IMG/VR virus record: IMGVR_UViG_3300042476_000047
Coordinates: 1 to 22,846 of that record
Origin: a virus
Direction: 5' to 3' (one strand)
Length of the DNA stretch: 22,846 nt
The notes beneath the pieces are model-generated. The model saw only the letters and a program-made list of their open reading frames with translations. It did no database searches and was not told the DNA's origin. Positions 945-12,176 of this stretch are shown here, piece by piece. How positions within the stretch are numbered: the stretch's first letter is position 1; each line of letters begins with the position of its first letter. The translations under genes were made by a program, and so were the position numbers.

Positions 945-2797
945 CGGAAAATCACCCCTTCGCTTGTTAAAGTGTTGATGGTCTGACTGACACCGCCAGT
1001 CGCGCCAGCAGCGTTGATAAACGACCCATTCTCAACCACAATATCGGTGACTGACGTTGTACCACCGCGCTGAAAATTGCTGCTTTGCGCGTTGATTGTT
1101 GAACCACTGGCAGCAAACACACCCTCGTTGGTTGCGCCAGTTCCGGTGCAAGATGATGCGTTTATAATTGATGCGCCCGCAGCATAAACAGACCTATTGC
1201 CAGCCCCAGTAATTGTGCTGCCAGTGCAATTGATTGTTGATCCTGATTCGCAACGAATAACGATGCCGGAACATCCGGTTGCGGTCAAACTTTCAACGTT
1301 GATGCGCGATGCCGCGTCTGCAAATGCCGCTGCGTCATTTGTTCCTGTGCCGCAATTATTGGCTGTGCTAGATGCTGCGCTAATTGTTGAACCACCAGAT
1401 GCAAAATATCCGTAAGTGCCAGCGCCACTTACATCGGTTTCGGTAGCATCAACCGTAGAACATGGGCTTGCGTAAACGCCGTTTTCGCCGCAGTCGGTAA
1501 GCGTTGCACCTCGCGCATGAATAGTGCATCCGTTACTTGCCAAAACACCCGAATGCTTGGCGTTTGTGGCCAACGCATCACGGGCCGCAATCCATGAACC
1601 ATTAAACGCATAAATGCCATATCCAGCAGCCGCTGCGTCAGGGTAAGGCAAGTTTGTACCAGGGGCGCACCCAGCATAGTTTGATGTTACGCCATCGGCG
1701 CTCATCCAACCAGCATCGGTTGCGCGAAGGTTGTATCGGAAACAGTTGTTTGCAGTACCGTTGTCAATTACCAGAATGCCGCCGTGGGCTGCTTGAGCGC
1801 CGTAATACATTGAGTTGCTGACATCTGCGCCTGATGCAAATACAGTGCTTCCCCATGAAACAATGCCTGATCCAGTTGTATTATTTTTAGCACACCCCGT
1901 CCAAATAGTGTCAAAGGCGTAGATGGTGCTGCCACCGTATGCGCGGCAACCATCACCCCAAGTATTTTTAACGCCACAATTTGCCTCAACATAACCGACA
2001 GATGCACCCCACGCAGCGTAGCCATAATTTGCTTTGGAGTTGGCATCCACAAGGCAAGCCAAGCGCGGAAGTTTGGCGTTTAAACCGTAGATGAAATTTG
2101 CAGACGTTCCGAAAGACGGAGACAGCACGACCTCTGCATCGGTCGAGGTGATGCGGAATTGTGAGTAATCACCATTCGCCACGGTGCATCCGCTTTGCGG
2201 CGAATGGCCAGACTCGATGTTGAGCGTGATGGTGATCTGCGGATTGTTCGGTGCCAAGCAGTCCACAGCCGTCTGCAAGTTTGCAGCATCGGTCGGAATG
2301 CGCACGGTCAGGTTGTCATTGACCAGCAACTTGAATGAGCCGGTGGCCGCTGTAATGGCGTCTGCCAGCGTAGCAAAGTCGCTGATGAAGTGCTCTAGTT
2401 CGAGTTGGTCTTGAACAGTAGTTGCAACAGCACCAAAGCCTGGAGGCTGGTAAACGACCTGATCTGCGTCAATCGTTCCTGTGAAAACAACATCACTGAA
2501 TCGCTCAGTCGCAGCCGGTGCGCTGTATACCACGCTGCCGTTTTTGTTCTGCACCTGAATGCTGTAGTCGCTATTGACGTACAGACGTGCAGGAGTTCCA
2601 TTGCGAGACGGATAACCGTTCAATGTGCGGATTGGCTGTGGTGCTGCAATGGTTAGCGCAGCATCCCAATAGACGTTGATTGGGTTGGTCTGTGGATCAA
2701 GATTGGCCGTGCCGATCCAGATGTAGCCGTTCTCCAACGGCAACCCGTCCGTCTCTGTGAAGATCGGGTAGGTGGGTTGAATGGAAAGTGCGCTCAT
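941..2797 (-). CDS. Tailspike with P22-type head-binding domain and parallel beta-helix
   Basis: A 618-residue protein. Residues about 10-95 match the style of the P22 tailspike head-binding domain: FTETDGLPLENGYIWIGT, then NPINVYWD, RTLNGYPSRNGTPARLYV and a YSIQVQNKNGS strand. From about residue 180 the protein becomes a ladder of short Gly/Ser/Thr/Ala-rich rungs (repeats such as SGSTIN, GGSTISA, ASGSTINA), typical of a right-handed parallel beta-helix that binds and often cleaves surface polysaccharide. It is close in length to P22 gp9 (about 667). The helix carries many Cys residues, unusual for such spikes. AGGAG lies eight bases before the ATG, and the start overlaps the stop of the ejection gene (ATGA). 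The catalytic residues cannot be assigned by eye. Confidence 0.85.
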   Translation of the reverse strand: MSALSIQPTYPIFTETDGLPLENGYIWIGTANLDPQTNPINVYWDAALTIAAPQPIRTLNGYPSRNGTPARLYVNSDYSIQVQNKNGSVVYSAPAATERFSDVVFTGTIDADQVVYQPPGFGAVATTVQDQLELEHFISDFATLADAITAATGSFKLLVNDNLTVRIPTDAANLQTAVDCLAPNNPQITITLNIESGHSPQSGCTVANGDYSQFRITSTDAEVVLSPSFGTSANFIYGLNAKLPRLACLVDANSKANYGYAAWGASVGYVEANCGVKNTWGDGCRAYGGSTIYAFDTIWTGCAKNNTTGSGIVSWGSTVFASGADVSNSMYYGAQAAHGGILVIDNGTANNCFRYNLRATDAGWMSADGVTSNYAGCAPGTNLPYPDAAAAGYGIYAFNGSWIAARDALATNAKHSGVLASNGCTIHARGATLTDCGENGVYASPCSTVDATETDVSGAGTYGYFASGGSTISAASSTANNCGTGTNDAAAFADAASRINVESLTATGCSGIVIRCESGSTINCTGSTITGAGNRSVYAAGASIINASSCTGTGATNEGVFAASGSTINAQSSNFQRGGTTSVTDIVVENGSFINAAGATGGVSQTINTLTSEGVIFR

Positions 2798-5700
2798 CGT
2801 TGGTTCTCCTGATCGAATTGTCCTGCAGCTTGCATGGATTGCACAAGCCAGCGCTCGCGCCAGCTCAGCTCTCGCGGCATCTTGGCTGCGTCAGCAAAGC
2901 GCCGGAAGGCGGCAGAAAGTGCCACGCTGCGGATCGTGGACTGGCTTGGGGTCGTCTTGGTCGCGCCTTCCACGGCCAGACGTTGAAACTCGGGTGACGA
3001 GATCAGCTCGTCGGCAGCCTTGAGCACCTCGGGCTTGACGCCCTTGGTCAATGCTGCCGTCAGGCCAGATGCGATGCCTGCACCAGGCAAGCCCACAGCC
3101 GTCGTGGCGGCCTCAGCCGGGATACCGACTGCTGCACGCTTGGCCACGTTGAAGATGTTCGACAGCAGCGTGTCAGCGCCTTGCAGCTCCTGCTGGACGG
3201 CCTGAATCCGGCCTGTGGTGATGCGCTCGCGGGTGGCCTTGCGCACGTTGTTCGAGACCCGATACAGGTCCGACAGTGCCTTCCTGGCCGGCTGCGGCAG
3301 GTTGTTCATCAAGGCCGCATAGGCCTGCTTGTTCTGCAGCAGACCTTCGTACCAGTTGGCGTAGGTGTTGAAATTCAGCGCGCCGTTCTGCGTGGCCTTG
3401 CCGAAGGCCGTGTTCAGGGCCGAGGCTGCCACCATCTGGCGCATGTCCTCTGGGATGGCTTGCAGCACCTTGATCAACTTGTCGGCGTCGCCCTTAGACA
3501 GCGCCGTGGTGGCCGTGGACAGCTTGGTGACCAGACTCTGGTCCAGCTCGCGCCCGAACAGCGAGATCATGTCGTCCTCGATGCCCTTGCGCATGGACAC
3601 CAGGCTTTTGGCCAGGCGGTACTGCTCGCCTCGGCCAGCGGCCTCAGCCAGCGCGAACTGGTCGTCGTCGATCAGCGCATACAAGCGCTTCGCCAGGCCG
3701 GTGTCGGCGTCCTTGAATGCGCCTTGCTGGCGTGCTGCAGCACCGATGTCGCGCCGCACGTCATCGATCAGCGCATAGGTAGGCTGGCGCATGCCGATCA
3801 CATTGCCTGCATCGTCTTTGATCTCCTTCGGAGACAGCTTGCTGCGCACCGCCTTCTCCAGCGGAGAGAGGTTTTTCGGACCGTCCAAGTCCAGCGCACG
3901 CTGCTCGACGAAGGCCAGCACGTTGTCGGCTGGGCCACGAGTCTGGGCCGGGATGTTCTGGCGCAGGTCGTCGTAGGCTGTGTTGGCTCTGCGCTCCAGG
4001 TTGGCCACCGTCTGCGACAGGTTGGTGCGCACGGCCTGGTTCATGCGGCTGAGGTCGGTCATGCCGCCGATCTGGGTGATCAGGTCGTCTGCCTGCTTGC
4101 CCACGGCTTCCAGGCCAGTCAGCTCGGCTGCACGCGCCTGGCTGCCAGGGATCGACTTCACGGCCTGCGCCAGCTCGCGGTAGGCCTGGTTCGAGGTCAG
4201 GTGATCCGGCTGCAGGTAGCCCTCGATCTTGAGCCGACGCGCGGCCTCCAAGACCTTGGGATCGGGTGCAGCCTGGGTGGCCAGCACTTCGGTGGCTCGG
4301 CCAGCGCCCATGCCGCCGCCTGTGGCCGTCCTGGCGGTCTGCGCCAGCTCGGTGGTGGTCATCGGTGCGGCTGCAGCAGGTCTTGGCGGAACTGGAAATG
4401 TCACAGCACCACTTGGTTGAATACCAGCAGGCATGACGCTAGGGGCTGGAGGAGCTGCCAGTGGCACCTCTGGGCCGACAGCGCCGGTCGGAGAAATTTC
4501 GCGCACGGTGCCGGTCGGAGGCATGATTGGTGCAGCGACCTGCTCGCCTGCTGCAGGTGCAACAGGAGGAGCCTCGCCGCCGCGCACAGCGCGCACCATC
4601 TGCGGAATGCGGGTCACAGCCTGGCCAGCGCCGCCCATTGCTCCGGCCAGCGCCACCTCGCCAGTGTCGAATCGGCCACCAGTGGCGGCCTGGGTGGTCT
4701 CGATGGCTGCCTGAGTTGCCGCACCGCCAGCAATGGCAGTGGGAATGGTGGCAGCACGGCCGGCAGGCGTGAAGGCTGCAATCGCACCGGCAGCTCGCGG
4801 GATGTCGCTGACCTGGAAGCCAGGCTTGATGGCGTACATTTGGCCGTCGATGGACGACTGCAGCACGAAGTTGCCCTTCTCGTCCTGGCTGACTTTCACG
4901 CCAGGGAAGTTGGCTTGGATGACCTGCACAGTCTCCTGCGGATTGGTCATCATCGTGCCCAGGGCCGACTTGAAGCTGGCCATGCTGAAGGTGTTCAGCT
5001 CAGGCATGCTGGCCCAGTCGGGCAGCGCTTGGGTTGTCGGCGTGGCGCGCTCGGTGCCGGTGACAGCCTCACGAATGCCACCCAGCACGCCCATCGGCTC
5101 GGTCTTCTGGAGTTGGAAGCCAGTCGGCACCTTGGCCATGCCGCTGGAGACGTCGCGCTCCAGCTCCATCATCTCCTCGCGTGTCATGCGTCCGGTGCTG
5201 TAGGCCTGCAGCACAGCCGCAGGCAGCTCTGGCGTGGTTGGTCTGGCACCTTGGGGCTGCTCGCCACGCAAGGCCGCGCCACGGGGTAGCATGAGGGTGC
5301 CGCCGCGAACGTCGGCCTCAAACTCTGCCGACTCTTCAGGCGTCATTTGTCCGGAGCTGTAGGCTTGGTAGACCCTCGCAATCGCATCCGGCGGTACAGC
5401 AGCCATGCTGCTGGCACCAAGAGCACGCTGAAAGGTGCTGGTCGTGCCGCCCTCCGCAATAGTTGGTGCCTGCGCAGGGGCACGCTGTGGGCTGAGGTCG
5501 CGCACGCCTTGCGAGACGCGATCGATGTATGCCCTGGTGCGTGGTCCCCAGTTGGCCGGGTTGGTACCGCCGTGGTACTCAGCAGCCGCCAGTTTGATGT
5601 CGCCCTTGTTGCGGTCCAGCGACTCCTTGAGCAGCAGGCCAGCGGCCTCGGCTGAGTTCTCTGGGCTGAGGTAGGCGTCCACGCCGTACTTCTTGAGCAC

Positions 5701-5898
5701 CGCCTGGCGGGTGGCCGGGATGATCTGGAATGGGGTTTTTGCGCCTGCCTCAGACACCTGGTCGGCATTGCTGCGCTCGCCTCGTGTGAGAACCGAGACC
5801 AGCAAGCCCTGCGGCAGCCCGAGCTTTTGCTCGGTGCCAGCGGCCAGGTCAGACCAAAACGGGTCTTTGTAGCTGGTGGGGGTTTGTTGCGTTGCCAT
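2794..5898 (-). CDS. Ejection protein with N-terminal lytic transglycosylase (SLT) domain, gp16-like position
   Basis: A 1034-residue internal virion protein. Residues about 15-130 form an SLT-type domain: GERS with the presumed catalytic Glu41, AGAKTPFQIIPATR (the usual 'GxxQxxPxT' motif), and AAAEYHGG in place of AAYNGG. It would open peptidoglycan locally during DNA entry, as the N-terminal domain of T7 gp16 does. Residues 171-208 and 226-262 are an internal repeat (YQAYSSGQMTPEE / LQAYSTGRMTREE). A Gly/Ala-rich hydrophobic stretch lies at about 369-428, then a Pro-rich linker, then a long helical C-terminal half. I chose the ATG at 5898, one base after the previous stop, because the 13 residues in front of it overlap the upstream gene. 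The position matches P22 gene 16, but P22 gp16 has no such domain. Confidence 0.85.
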   Translation of the reverse strand: MATQQTPTSYKDPFWSDLAAGTEQKLGLPQGLLVSVLTRGERSNADQVSEAGAKTPFQIIPATRQAVLKKYGVDAYLSPENSAEAAGLLLKESLDRNKGDIKLAAAEYHGGTNPANWGPRTRAYIDRVSQGVRDLSPQRAPAQAPTIAEGGTTSTFQRALGASSMAAVPPDAIARVYQAYSSGQMTPEESAEFEADVRGGTLMLPRGAALRGEQPQGARPTTPELPAAVLQAYSTGRMTREEMMELERDVSSGMAKVPTGFQLQKTEPMGVLGGIREAVTGTERATPTTQALPDWASMPELNTFSMASFKSALGTMMTNPQETVQVIQANFPGVKVSQDEKGNFVLQSSIDGQMYAIKPGFQVSDIPRAAGAIAAFTPAGRAATIPTAIAGGAATQAAIETTQAATGGRFDTGEVALAGAMGGAGQAVTRIPQMVRAVRGGEAPPVAPAAGEQVAAPIMPPTGTVREISPTGAVGPEVPLAAPPAPSVMPAGIQPSGAVTFPVPPRPAAAAPMTTTELAQTARTATGGGMGAGRATEVLATQAAPDPKVLEAARRLKIEGYLQPDHLTSNQAYRELAQAVKSIPGSQARAAELTGLEAVGKQADDLITQIGGMTDLSRMNQAVRTNLSQTVANLERRANTAYDDLRQNIPAQTRGPADNVLAFVEQRALDLDGPKNLSPLEKAVRSKLSPKEIKDDAGNVIGMRQPTYALIDDVRRDIGAAARQQGAFKDADTGLAKRLYALIDDDQFALAEAAGRGEQYRLAKSLVSMRKGIEDDMISLFGRELDQSLVTKLSTATTALSKGDADKLIKVLQAIPEDMRQMVAASALNTAFGKATQNGALNFNTYANWYEGLLQNKQAYAALMNNLPQPARKALSDLYRVSNNVRKATRERITTGRIQAVQQELQGADTLLSNIFNVAKRAAVGIPAEAATTAVGLPGAGIASGLTAALTKGVKPEVLKAADELISSPEFQRLAVEGATKTTPSQSTIRSVALSAAFRRFADAAKMPRELSWRERWLVQSMQAAGQFDQENQR

Positions 5899-5899
5899 C

Positions 5900-7381
5900 T
5901 TATGGTGCGCCTGTGAACGGGCTTGGCACAGTGACACCGCCTCCGAATGGCGGTGGGTTCACTGGCGTCGTGGGCAGTGGCGATAGATTTTGAGCAGGTG
6001 CTGCACCAGGCACAGCGCCTGTTTCAGGGTTGGCAAAGCGCATGTAGCTACGGCCAGACACCGCACGGCCAGCTTGAGCTGCTGCCAAGTCCTGCGCACG
6101 CTGGTCCATGAACTGGCGTGCAAAGTCCACGTAGGTGGTGCCTTTAGGCACTTGGATGCCGCCGATGTCGATGTCTTTGTTGGCACGGCCAAGGGTGCCG
6201 TTTGAGTTCACCCACTCAGACTTGGCGCTTTCGGCCACCGCCTCGTACTGCGCCATCTTGGCCATGCCGCGCAGGAATGATGCGAGCACGGCTGCATCAG
6301 CCGTCTCTGGGGGCAAGCCCTTGAGCGCCAGCTCGATGTCCTTGTCTGTGGCCACGCCTGGTGGCAACGACTTGATGGCCTGCGTGTTGCGCAGCCGGGT
6401 GTACTCGTTGCGCAGTTGCGTGAAGCCATCCTGATTGCCGGTGAGGTTTTTCACCTTCTCAGAGAACGATGTCCCTGCGCCCCTACCGCCGCCAGCTGAC
6501 TCCATGCGGCTGGCCAGATCGAGCATGCGGCCTGCGGCCTGCTCAGAGCCGACGGCAGCCACTGCTGCATCGTTGACGATCTTGGCTGCGTTGGCATCGA
6601 GCGTGGTGCCCTTTTGGTTCAGCTCGAAGAGCTTGAGTTCAACGTCAGACTGCAACTTGTCGCGGTCTAATTTCAGCTTGTCTTGATCAAGCACCAGCCT
6701 GTTGGAGCGTTCCACGATCTGGCTGTCCAAGTTGCGGATGTTGGCCGCCGTCTGCGTGTTCTCCAGCGCCAGGCGGGTCGGCGTGTTGGCCGTGATCAGC
6801 TCTTCCTTGGTCGCGCCAGCCTCGCCAGCACGAATCTCAGCCGGTGCCTTGAGCGCTTGGATGGACGATGTCAGCACCTTGTCGCCGCCAGGCACACCTG
6901 CCAGCATGATGCCGATGGTCTTCTGGGCGCTCTGTGGGCTGACCTCGGCCATCTGTGCCCAGGTTTCGTATGCCTTGGCCTGGCCTTCGCGGCCGGCATT
7001 GCGTTCTGCCGTGGCGCGCTCGCGCAGGAGCTGGATGCCGATCTGCGGCTGGTTGGCGCTGAATGCCGAGATGACTTGACCACCAAAGCGCAACTGGTTC
7101 TGCTGCTGCTCTTTGGACAGCGTCTCAAAGTTGGCGCGCATGCTGGCTGCTTCTTTTTCAGGCAGCAGCATGGCCACGTTGATGAAGTCTCGCGCAGTCG
7201 GGTTGGGATTTTGAATCAGTGCATTGACCTGCGTTTGCAAGTTCTGCTTGCGCACCAGCTCCTGCTCCTGCAGTTGACGCTGAGCACCGATGTCGGCAAT
7301 CGTTGCGCCGATCTTGAAGCCGCCCAAAGCAGCCTCAAAAGGACTCTGGACGTTGAGTGAATAGTTGATTGGTTGGACCAT
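5900..7381 (-). CDS. P22 gp20-like DNA ejection (injection) protein
   Basis: A 493-residue, Gln/Ala-rich, mostly helical protein lying between the gp7-like and gp16-like genes, the place of P22 gene 20. The middle (KLKLDRDKLQSDVELKL and its surroundings) is a strongly charged coiled-coil. The N-terminus (PFEAALGGFKIGATIADIGA) is Gly/Ala-rich, and the C-terminal tail is Pro/Gly-rich and probably disordered. P22-type ejection proteins are packed in the capsid and released into the cell envelope to help DNA entry. A longer start 15 codons upstream exists, but the ATG at 7381 has a perfect AAGGAG seven bases upstream and lies beyond the previous stop, so I use it. Assignment rests on context and composition, since these proteins diverge quickly. 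Confidence 0.7.
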   Translation of the reverse strand: MVQPINYSLNVQSPFEAALGGFKIGATIADIGAQRQLQEQELVRKQNLQTQVNALIQNPNPTARDFINVAMLLPEKEAASMRANFETLSKEQQQNQLRFGGQVISAFSANQPQIGIQLLRERATAERNAGREGQAKAYETWAQMAEVSPQSAQKTIGIMLAGVPGGDKVLTSSIQALKAPAEIRAGEAGATKEELITANTPTRLALENTQTAANIRNLDSQIVERSNRLVLDQDKLKLDRDKLQSDVELKLFELNQKGTTLDANAAKIVNDAAVAAVGSEQAAGRMLDLASRMESAGGGRGAGTSFSEKVKNLTGNQDGFTQLRNEYTRLRNTQAIKSLPPGVATDKDIELALKGLPPETADAAVLASFLRGMAKMAQYEAVAESAKSEWVNSNGTLGRANKDIDIGGIQVPKGTTYVDFARQFMDQRAQDLAAAQAGRAVSGRSYMRFANPETGAVPGAAPAQNLSPLPTTPVNPPPFGGGVTVPSPFTGAP

Positions 7382-7387
7382 TTGTGG

Positions 7388-7393
7388 CTCCTT
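7388..7393 (-). promoter_or_regulatory. Ribosome binding site that fixes the start at 7381
   Basis: AAGGAG on the transcript, ending seven bases before the ATG at 7381. It favours this start over the in-frame upstream one at 7426. Confidence 0.7.
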
Positions 7394-8327
7394 ATACCTT
7401 GCTGTAGTCCACGGTGAGATAGCCACCGGACTGGCCCACAGCGTCAGGATAGATGCCCAGCACCTCTTGCGCCATCAGACCGATCTGACGACCGCCGCCC
7501 CAGGTGTATTCAAACTCGTAGACGCCCAGGCCATCTGACCGGGTGCCGATGCGTTGGATGTTCTTTTTCAGCCGGATGTCGCTGAAGATGTTGCGCAGAC
7601 CTGGCGTCATTGCTGTGCCAGCCTTGCCTGCGGTCGCACCGTACTGCGCGCCCAAGAACTGAGCAGGCAGGTTCAGGACGTTGGCAAAGGCTTGGCCCTG
7701 CGCCAGCTCTGCGCCAGCGCGTGCAGCACCTTGCTGCCCCATCAATCCTGCGATGTCTGCACCGGTTCTCAGGCCAGCCGTGGCCGTGCCTGCAGCCGAT
7801 GCCTGGCCCATTTGTGCCAAGTTCTGGCTGGTGAGCTGGCCCAGTGATGTCAGGCCGCCAAGGCGACCGTACTGGGTTGCGATTTCTTGCTGCAGCATTT
7901 GTGGCCTGAACTGTGCCAATGCGGCTTGGATGTTGCCACCGCGCAGGCCACCAGTGGCCGATGCACGCTGCAGCAGCGCCTCCTCTCCCTGCCGGACTTG
8001 AGCCTGAAAGCCTGCGCCCTGCTCAATGCCTGCAATGGCTGCTTGCTGAGCCTCTGGGCCGCGCAGGCCAAGCAATGCCTGCTGCTGCTCCAGTGCAGGC
8101 GCTCCGGCTGCAGCGTAAGGCTGCAGGCCACCGATGGCAGTGGTGCCTGCGGTGACGTAGGGCTTGAGGATTTCTTGCACCGCCTCAAACTGGCGACGCT
8201 GCTCATCGATGCCAGCCTGTGCAGCTTGCGTTTGTGCGCCTGCCGCTTGACTGGCTGCTCTGCTTTGCACCATGCCGCCGACAACTTGGGTGCCTCCGAC
8301 AACTAGGGCTGTTACTGGATCAGGCAT
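7392..8327 (-). CDS. P22 gp7-like ejection protein with C-terminal peptidase S74 auto-chaperone domain
   Basis: A 311-residue protein. Residues 1-240 are Ala/Gly/Gln-rich and helical, with the GLRGGNIQAALAQF segment (about 127-140) typical of gp7-like DNA transfer proteins of P22-type phages. Residues about 248-311 are an S74 domain (intramolecular chaperone of endosialidase type): FSDIRLKKNIQRIG, YEFEYTWGGGRQIG, LMAQEVLGIYPDAV, and YLTVDYSKV at the end. The Ser249-Asp250 pair and Lys254 keep the Ser/Lys (+5) catalytic arrangement, so self-cleavage at that site is plausible. S74 domains normally mature trimeric tailspikes and fibres. Here one sits on a capsid-interior protein and may prevent premature membrane insertion or enforce oligomer folding; that part is inference. 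It overlaps the previous gene by eight bases. Confidence 0.8.
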   Translation of the reverse strand: MPDPVTALVVGGTQVVGGMVQSRAASQAAGAQTQAAQAGIDEQRRQFEAVQEILKPYVTAGTTAIGGLQPYAAAGAPALEQQQALLGLRGPEAQQAAIAGIEQGAGFQAQVRQGEEALLQRASATGGLRGGNIQAALAQFRPQMLQQEIATQYGRLGGLTSLGQLTSQNLAQMGQASAAGTATAGLRTGADIAGLMGQQGAARAGAELAQGQAFANVLNLPAQFLGAQYGATAGKAGTAMTPGLRNIFSDIRLKKNIQRIGTRSDGLGVYEFEYTWGGGRQIGLMAQEVLGIYPDAVGQSGGYLTVDYSKV

Positions 8328-11879: not shown

Positions 11880-12176
11880 TTACTTCTTAGCCTTGTTTCG
11901 GGCCGAGATTTTCTTGGCCTTGGCCTGTGCGTCAGCTTTGCTTGACGCGCCCCAGGCTTTCAGACTGAGCAGCAACCTGGTCGGCTCGCCGTCTTTGTAC
12001 TCAGGGCCGGGGTTGTTTCCCATGCGTGCCAAGAACGACGCCCTGCGTGGGTTGTCGCCGGACTTGACAGGCGGCTTGATGTTCTGGCCTGCAGCCTTTA
12101 GGCTGGCGCGCCCAGCAGCGTTCAAGCCGCCCTTGGGGTTCTGCCCCTCCTTGCGCTGCCATGCCGGTGTTTTCAT
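11880..12176 (-). CDS. Small basic protein, DUF6321-like
   Basis: A 98-residue, strongly basic protein. The opening AWQRKEGQNPKGGLNAAGR, then NIKPPVKSGDNPRRASFLARM, matches what I recall as the DUF6321 family, found in many phage structural regions and without known function. The C-terminus is a Lys/Ala helix (KADAQAKAKKISARNKAKK). It is third in a run of three tiny genes joined by ATGA overlaps (start at 12176 over the stop at 12173) and ends two bases before gp10. The charge suggests nucleic-acid binding or packaging with DNA, but this is inference. The DUF number is from memory. Confidence 0.75.
   Translation of the reverse strand: MKTPAWQRKEGQNPKGGLNAAGRASLKAAGQNIKPPVKSGDNPRRASFLARMGNNPGPEYKDGEPTRLLLSLKAWGASSKADAQAKAKKISARNKAKK

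Follow-up and report, generated by a model that had tools for sequence, protein, structure and literature searches.

Ejection proteins have to be harmless inside the phage head and form a channel across the cell envelope later, and the control of this behavior is poorly understood. The locus described here raises the question of why a protein of this type should end in an S74 domain. It lies in a virus record of 22.8 kb, which was analyzed over its whole length and is called the window below. An ORF on the minus strand (8327–7392; ATG at 8327, TAA at 7394–7392) encodes a protein of 311 aa, in which a gp7-type part is followed by a linker and a C-terminal S74 domain.

The N-terminal part (residues 1–230; 7638–8327, minus strand) is predicted to be mostly helical. 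The PHROG_598 family, annotated as DNA ejection, matches residues 8–165 (E = 3.5e-31, 109.7 bits), and gp7 of phage P22 was assigned to the same family (320 bits). A profile built from 173 relatives matches P22 gp7 directly (44.5 bits, P22 residues 26–200). These two matches bear out the first-pass annotation, which had described the product as a gp7-like DNA ejection protein. The Pfam model P22_gp7 (PF25688) remained below its cut-off on the window protein (14.3 vs. 28 bits). In the VIA list for the full-length model, residues 90–155 weakly matched a virion chain of phage DEV (9zdw, Z 5.5); this Z was equaled by unrelated chains, and the likeness was not used. By homology, the protein would be located inside the capsid and ejected from it.

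The genetic neighborhood is a P22-type module, in which genes for coat, portal, terminase, a gp4-like tail factor and a gp10-like protein precede the S74-bearing gene. It is followed by an ejection protein gene in the gp20 position (5900–7381, minus strand; the likely start is the ATG at 7381, after GGAG), by a gp16-position gene whose product has an SLT transglycosylase domain (2794–5937, minus strand), and by a tailspike gene with a weak head-binding match. The order running from the gp7 position to the gp20- and gp16-position genes is shared with P22. A small ORF with a DUF6321 match (11880–12176, minus strand; 66.7 bits) is also located inside the head-tail module.

While the ejection part of P22 gp7 is homologous to that of the window protein, P22 gp7 has no S74 domain and its known processing is N-terminal: the host protease OpdA trims its leader, deletion of which has little effect (PMC8402733). 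Residues 21–154 of P22 gp7 suffice for procapsid entry (PMC8402733), so the C-terminus is free to carry an extra domain. In virion maps, the P22 ejection proteins are without clear density (PMC8402733).

The S74 core and its conservation

The S74 (ICA) core comprises residues 249–311 (7395–7583, minus strand). Ser249, Asp250, Lys254 (codon at 7566–7568, minus strand) and the LMAQEV and VDYSKV motifs are all present in the translation, as described in the first-pass annotation. The Pfam S74 model (PF13884) scores 33.5 bits (cut-off, 22) over residues 249–297 and is covered from position 1 to 57 of 58. In a profile alignment of the family with remote members, Ser249 and Lys254 fall on S587 and K592 of MyRF (7dc3, an S587A mutant), and the same alignment places them on fiber S74 chains, including the long tail fiber 6f45. 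The profile search succeeded where a phmmer search of PDB sequences with the single window protein gave no match.

In the AlphaFold model of the full-length protein, residues 4–217 are helical, 219–246 are disordered and 250–311 are modeled with pLDDT 92–98; no beta-helix precedes the S74 core. The isolated S74 model superposed on the MyRF ICA domain (7dc3) at 1.9 Å over 49 residues with 29% identity, which was the best result by rmsd and identity, with a Z of only 3.3, tied with unrelated rows. Foldseek revealed no significant match in the PDB for either the full-length or the isolated-domain model. The chain ends with Val311, which aligns with MyRF position 674, and no helix follows the last strand of the core, which means that the catalytic core is present while the trimer helix is absent. 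Thus, the earlier description of the S74 domain as complete holds for the Pfam core and fails for the C-terminal trimer helix of the solved S74 domains.

The missing element is of importance in the known systems. MyRF has a self-cutting S74 and resembles the present case in being a non-fiber protein. Its trimer is described as driven mainly by the alpha4 coiled coil (670–705), and only the trimer is said to undergo cleavage (PMC8326128); the window protein ends at the position corresponding to MyRF 674. A triple coiled coil also forms the end of T5 pb1 (PMC4690869). Endosialidase NF (3GW6), T5 pb1 and phi29 gp12 (3GUD) have the S74/ICA core and the SDxxxK motif in common with the window protein, but in T5 pb1 and endosialidase NF a coiled-coil helix ends the chain after a beta-rich trimeric shaft, and both the helix and the shaft are lacking here. 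The window domain probably works like S74, but it is not a full member of the group, since it lacks both alpha4 and the upstream stalk.

The bond that is cut in T5 pb1 (T1263–S1264) and in MyRF (P586–S587) precedes the serine. We therefore predict Phe248|Ser249 (7581–7586, minus strand) as the scissile bond of the window protein, one bond upstream of the Ser249/Asp250 site that had been proposed before.

Among 85 distinct orthologues, F248, S249, D250, R252, L253 and K254 are invariant while their codons vary. The mean dN/dS is 0.125 for S74 and 0.112 for the gp7 core (residues 40–153), vs. 0.32 for the linker. The linker (residues 231–248; 7584–7637, minus strand), predicted to be disordered, has one invariant residue among 18 and contains neither an upstream beta-helix nor the conserved Arg sensor.

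Presence and absence of S74 among relatives

The existence of gp7-like proteins with S74 ends, which the first-pass annotation had suggested searching for, was confirmed in the close family and beyond it (see below). S74 is present in 87 of the 173 distinct relatives, while the other 86 have a natural stop ahead of it, often in GMGFGF or a similar sequence; the relatives were collected with several queries, and the 87:86 split reflects these queries and not the natural frequency. S74-less orthologues stop in the linker, with the next gene intact, and an ORF in the gp20 position follows the gp7-type gene in relatives of both kinds. The nearest pair, L299 with S74 and L289 without it, shares 99.1% identity over the gp7 part; in their DNA alignment, S74 stands out as a cleanly bounded cassette that lies after the linker and ahead of the start codon of the following gene. 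The tree of the gp7 part requires at least nine changes of S74 state, seven of them forced by well-supported branches. A coupling of S74 to a certain type of gp20-like partner was rejected, as the tree of the gp20-like proteins needs 15 changes and the gp7 tree nine.

In another pair, L412 with S74 and L413/L414 without it, divergence also extends to the genes past the gp7/gp20 junction, and the swap there may belong to a larger exchange. In one orthologue (L072:5001–5783), an unrelated short tail (GGIFSTPTVTPSSGGYEYSHIFS) takes the place of S74, which marks the C-terminus as a variable slot. Among 25 S74-less virus records, some of which may be fragments, 23 had no S74 anywhere and two had it elsewhere.

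Judged from these sequences, S74 looks like an optional, exchangeable attachment on the gp7-type ejection protein, which does not depend on it for folding. It had been proposed that S74 is needed for oligomerization or for the timing of membrane activity; this is not supported, given its absence from half of the sampled relatives, one of them 99.1% identical elsewhere. An oligomer-enforcing role is further disfavored, as the protein lacks two features of known S74 domains, the trimer helix and the beta-helix that precedes the core.

S74 cores in other phage proteins

The distribution of the core was surveyed in bacterial genomes with patterns taken from parts of the domain other than SDxxxK; a mixed S74 alignment for the collection scan was dropped as too diverse. 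Of the 68 loci found, 67 keep SDxxxK, the exception being a broken ORF of 79 aa. Over these very diverged contexts only about 13 core positions are invariant, and the dyad is retained with exactly the same spacing. Where the end of the protein is clear, 55 loci code for no more than 33 residues past the last strand, which indicates that the short form is a class and not an accident of the window phage; such an end point recurs in most proteobacterial members. Longer tails were found at ten loci, several of them from Bacteroidota, and nine of these tails read like the alpha4 helix (e.g., PILLEAIKEQQ). The short form is not exclusive to ejection proteins: the tailspike of a related phage (L412:10617–12860) carries a second S74 with a longer spacing, which ends early after the last strand (RYEQMFAFIIGAM).

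The combination of an ejection protein with S74 is already visible in databases. Pseudoalteromonas virus vB_PspP-H6/1 gp17, annotated as 'putative ejection protein; pfam13884', Pseudomonas phage PAE2_13 and a protein of Vibrio phage PVA1 are gp7-type proteins with a terminal alpha4-less S74, although they are only distantly similar in sequence to the window protein. The PVA1 open frame (L411:3647–4480) is unannotated in the deposited record. The PAE2 protein, used as a query in genome contigs, revealed no relative.

A short terminal S74 in the ejection-gene position was also found in Sinorhizobium phage phiM5 gp27 and Sulfitobacter phage phiGT1_17, but their N-terminal parts are unlike that of the window protein and they are annotated as tailspike or structural protein. 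The phiM5 gp27 record notes its detection in the phage particle. It should be mentioned that phiM5 gp27 (L410:2834–4240) and another ejection-position protein (L082:4131–5234), called tailspike or 'tail fiber domain-containing protein', are likely misnamed, as these names are due to S74.

Two PHROGs v4 families, PHROG_4287 ('DNA ejection protein') and PHROG_6121 ('virion structural protein'), have profiles that end in the same S74 core, with core matches running to about position 384–391 of 392; their entries state no S74 mechanism. The window protein matches PHROG_6121 and gave no PHROG_4287 match at E up to 0.01, while its N-terminal part belongs to PHROG_598. Our search of the open-access literature for ejection or injection proteins joined with S74, cleavage included, found no study.

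In a further group of large virion proteins (L083:4179–7736, L105:5167–9066 and L415–L490), an ejection-type N-terminal part is followed by a middle S74 core and a long C-terminal part. The search for long proteins started from two of them, L083 and L105, and revealed 38 complete ORFs that extend 150 aa or more past the core, in addition to cases truncated at the end of a contig. Most of the complete ORFs are about 1,000–2,000 aa long, and in about 40 related ORFs the C-terminal part behind the core has 650–1,420 aa. SDxxxK is kept in all 108 S74 matches of this search, some patterns of which held part of the motif. In all 27 scanned ORFs, S74 was found together with a PHROG of ejection or virion proteins (4287, 6121), and a minority contain a Pfam peptidoglycan hydrolase domain (SLT in five, Phage_lysozyme2 in two, GH108 in one); in the window, ejection and hydrolase functions are in separate genes. 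The position of the core between the ejection part and the C-terminal part is as would be expected of a processing hinge. If the core does cut, the long proteins would be ejection polyproteins with a self-processing hinge, and that they are self-cleaving polyproteins is possible.

Proposed self-removal and the alternatives

To which of several readings do these data point? The one that we prefer, giving it an even chance of being right, is that the window protein is a gp7-type ejection protein with an accessory, self-removing S74 reduced to its catalytic part. The gp7 part would most likely be what brings the chain into the particle. Once copies have come together, Lys254 would activate Ser249 to cut Phe248|Ser249 and free a piece of 63 residues, leaving the equivalent of the S74-less orthologues. 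With the alpha4 coiled coil absent, either the gp7 part or the S74 core itself would have to provide the trimer contact, and the benefit would be an accessory quality or timing step and not an essential one. We infer the occurrence of cleavage, its timing and its purpose. Self-cleavage appears plausible given a real S74 core, an invariant Ser-Lys dyad and purifying selection, and self-removal after copies meet would account for the conservation of the dyad as well as for the easy gain and loss of the domain. Self-cleavage is disfavored by the absence of alpha4, which mainly holds the trimers needed for MyRF cleavage (PMC8326128), and by the absence of the upstream beta-helix and the conserved Arg sensor.

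The same absences, together with the trimer requirement of known S74 cleavage, favor a reading that we regard as somewhat doubtful but the strongest competitor and not far behind, namely that the short S74 stays uncut and serves the protein as a small domain for structure or docking. Conservation of Ser, Asp and Lys could reflect a requirement of the fold alone, and the core is predicted as folded in the full-length model. The noted detection of phiM5 gp27 in the virion proteome, be it with or without its S74 part, would point the same way and speaks against self-removal. However, the exact dyad and spacing survive though so few core positions are invariant, and the clean S74-less orthologues rule out an essential docking role. 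The fuller model of the first-pass annotation, in which S74 folds and trimerizes the ejection protein and the timing of membrane activity is set by the removal of S74, has a precedent in what S74 does in tail spikes and MyRF, but we consider it improbable: the S74-less orthologues and the repeated changes of state are difficult to reconcile with an indispensable chaperone, neither a trimer helix nor a beta-helix that needs folding is present, and P22 gp7 functions without S74.

The two other explanations seem very improbable. Databases often use 'tail fiber domain-containing protein' for such products, and the window protein might accordingly be a tail fiber with a misleading gp7 match, but this is opposed by the PHROG_598 and direct P22 gp7 matches, by a helical prediction without a beta shaft, by the location ahead of the gp20- and gp16-position genes and by the separate tailspike in the window. 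Slightly less credible still is a decaying remnant of a tail-fiber S74, left by a chance fusion, which the missing alpha4 could resemble as a truncation; the low dN/dS, the dyad unchanged in 85 sequences and the end point shared by most proteobacterial members contradict it.

Beyond the window protein, and more tentatively than for its self-removal, the alpha4-less S74 may be a self-cutting hinge of podovirus ejection proteins, carried on a mobile cassette, which removes itself in the gp7-type proteins and splits the long ones. The near-identical pairs with and without the cassette are ready-made controls. If true, a self-cutting domain on ejection proteins would put S74 in a location, and perhaps in a role, that is new for it, and S74 may then function without its trimer helix.
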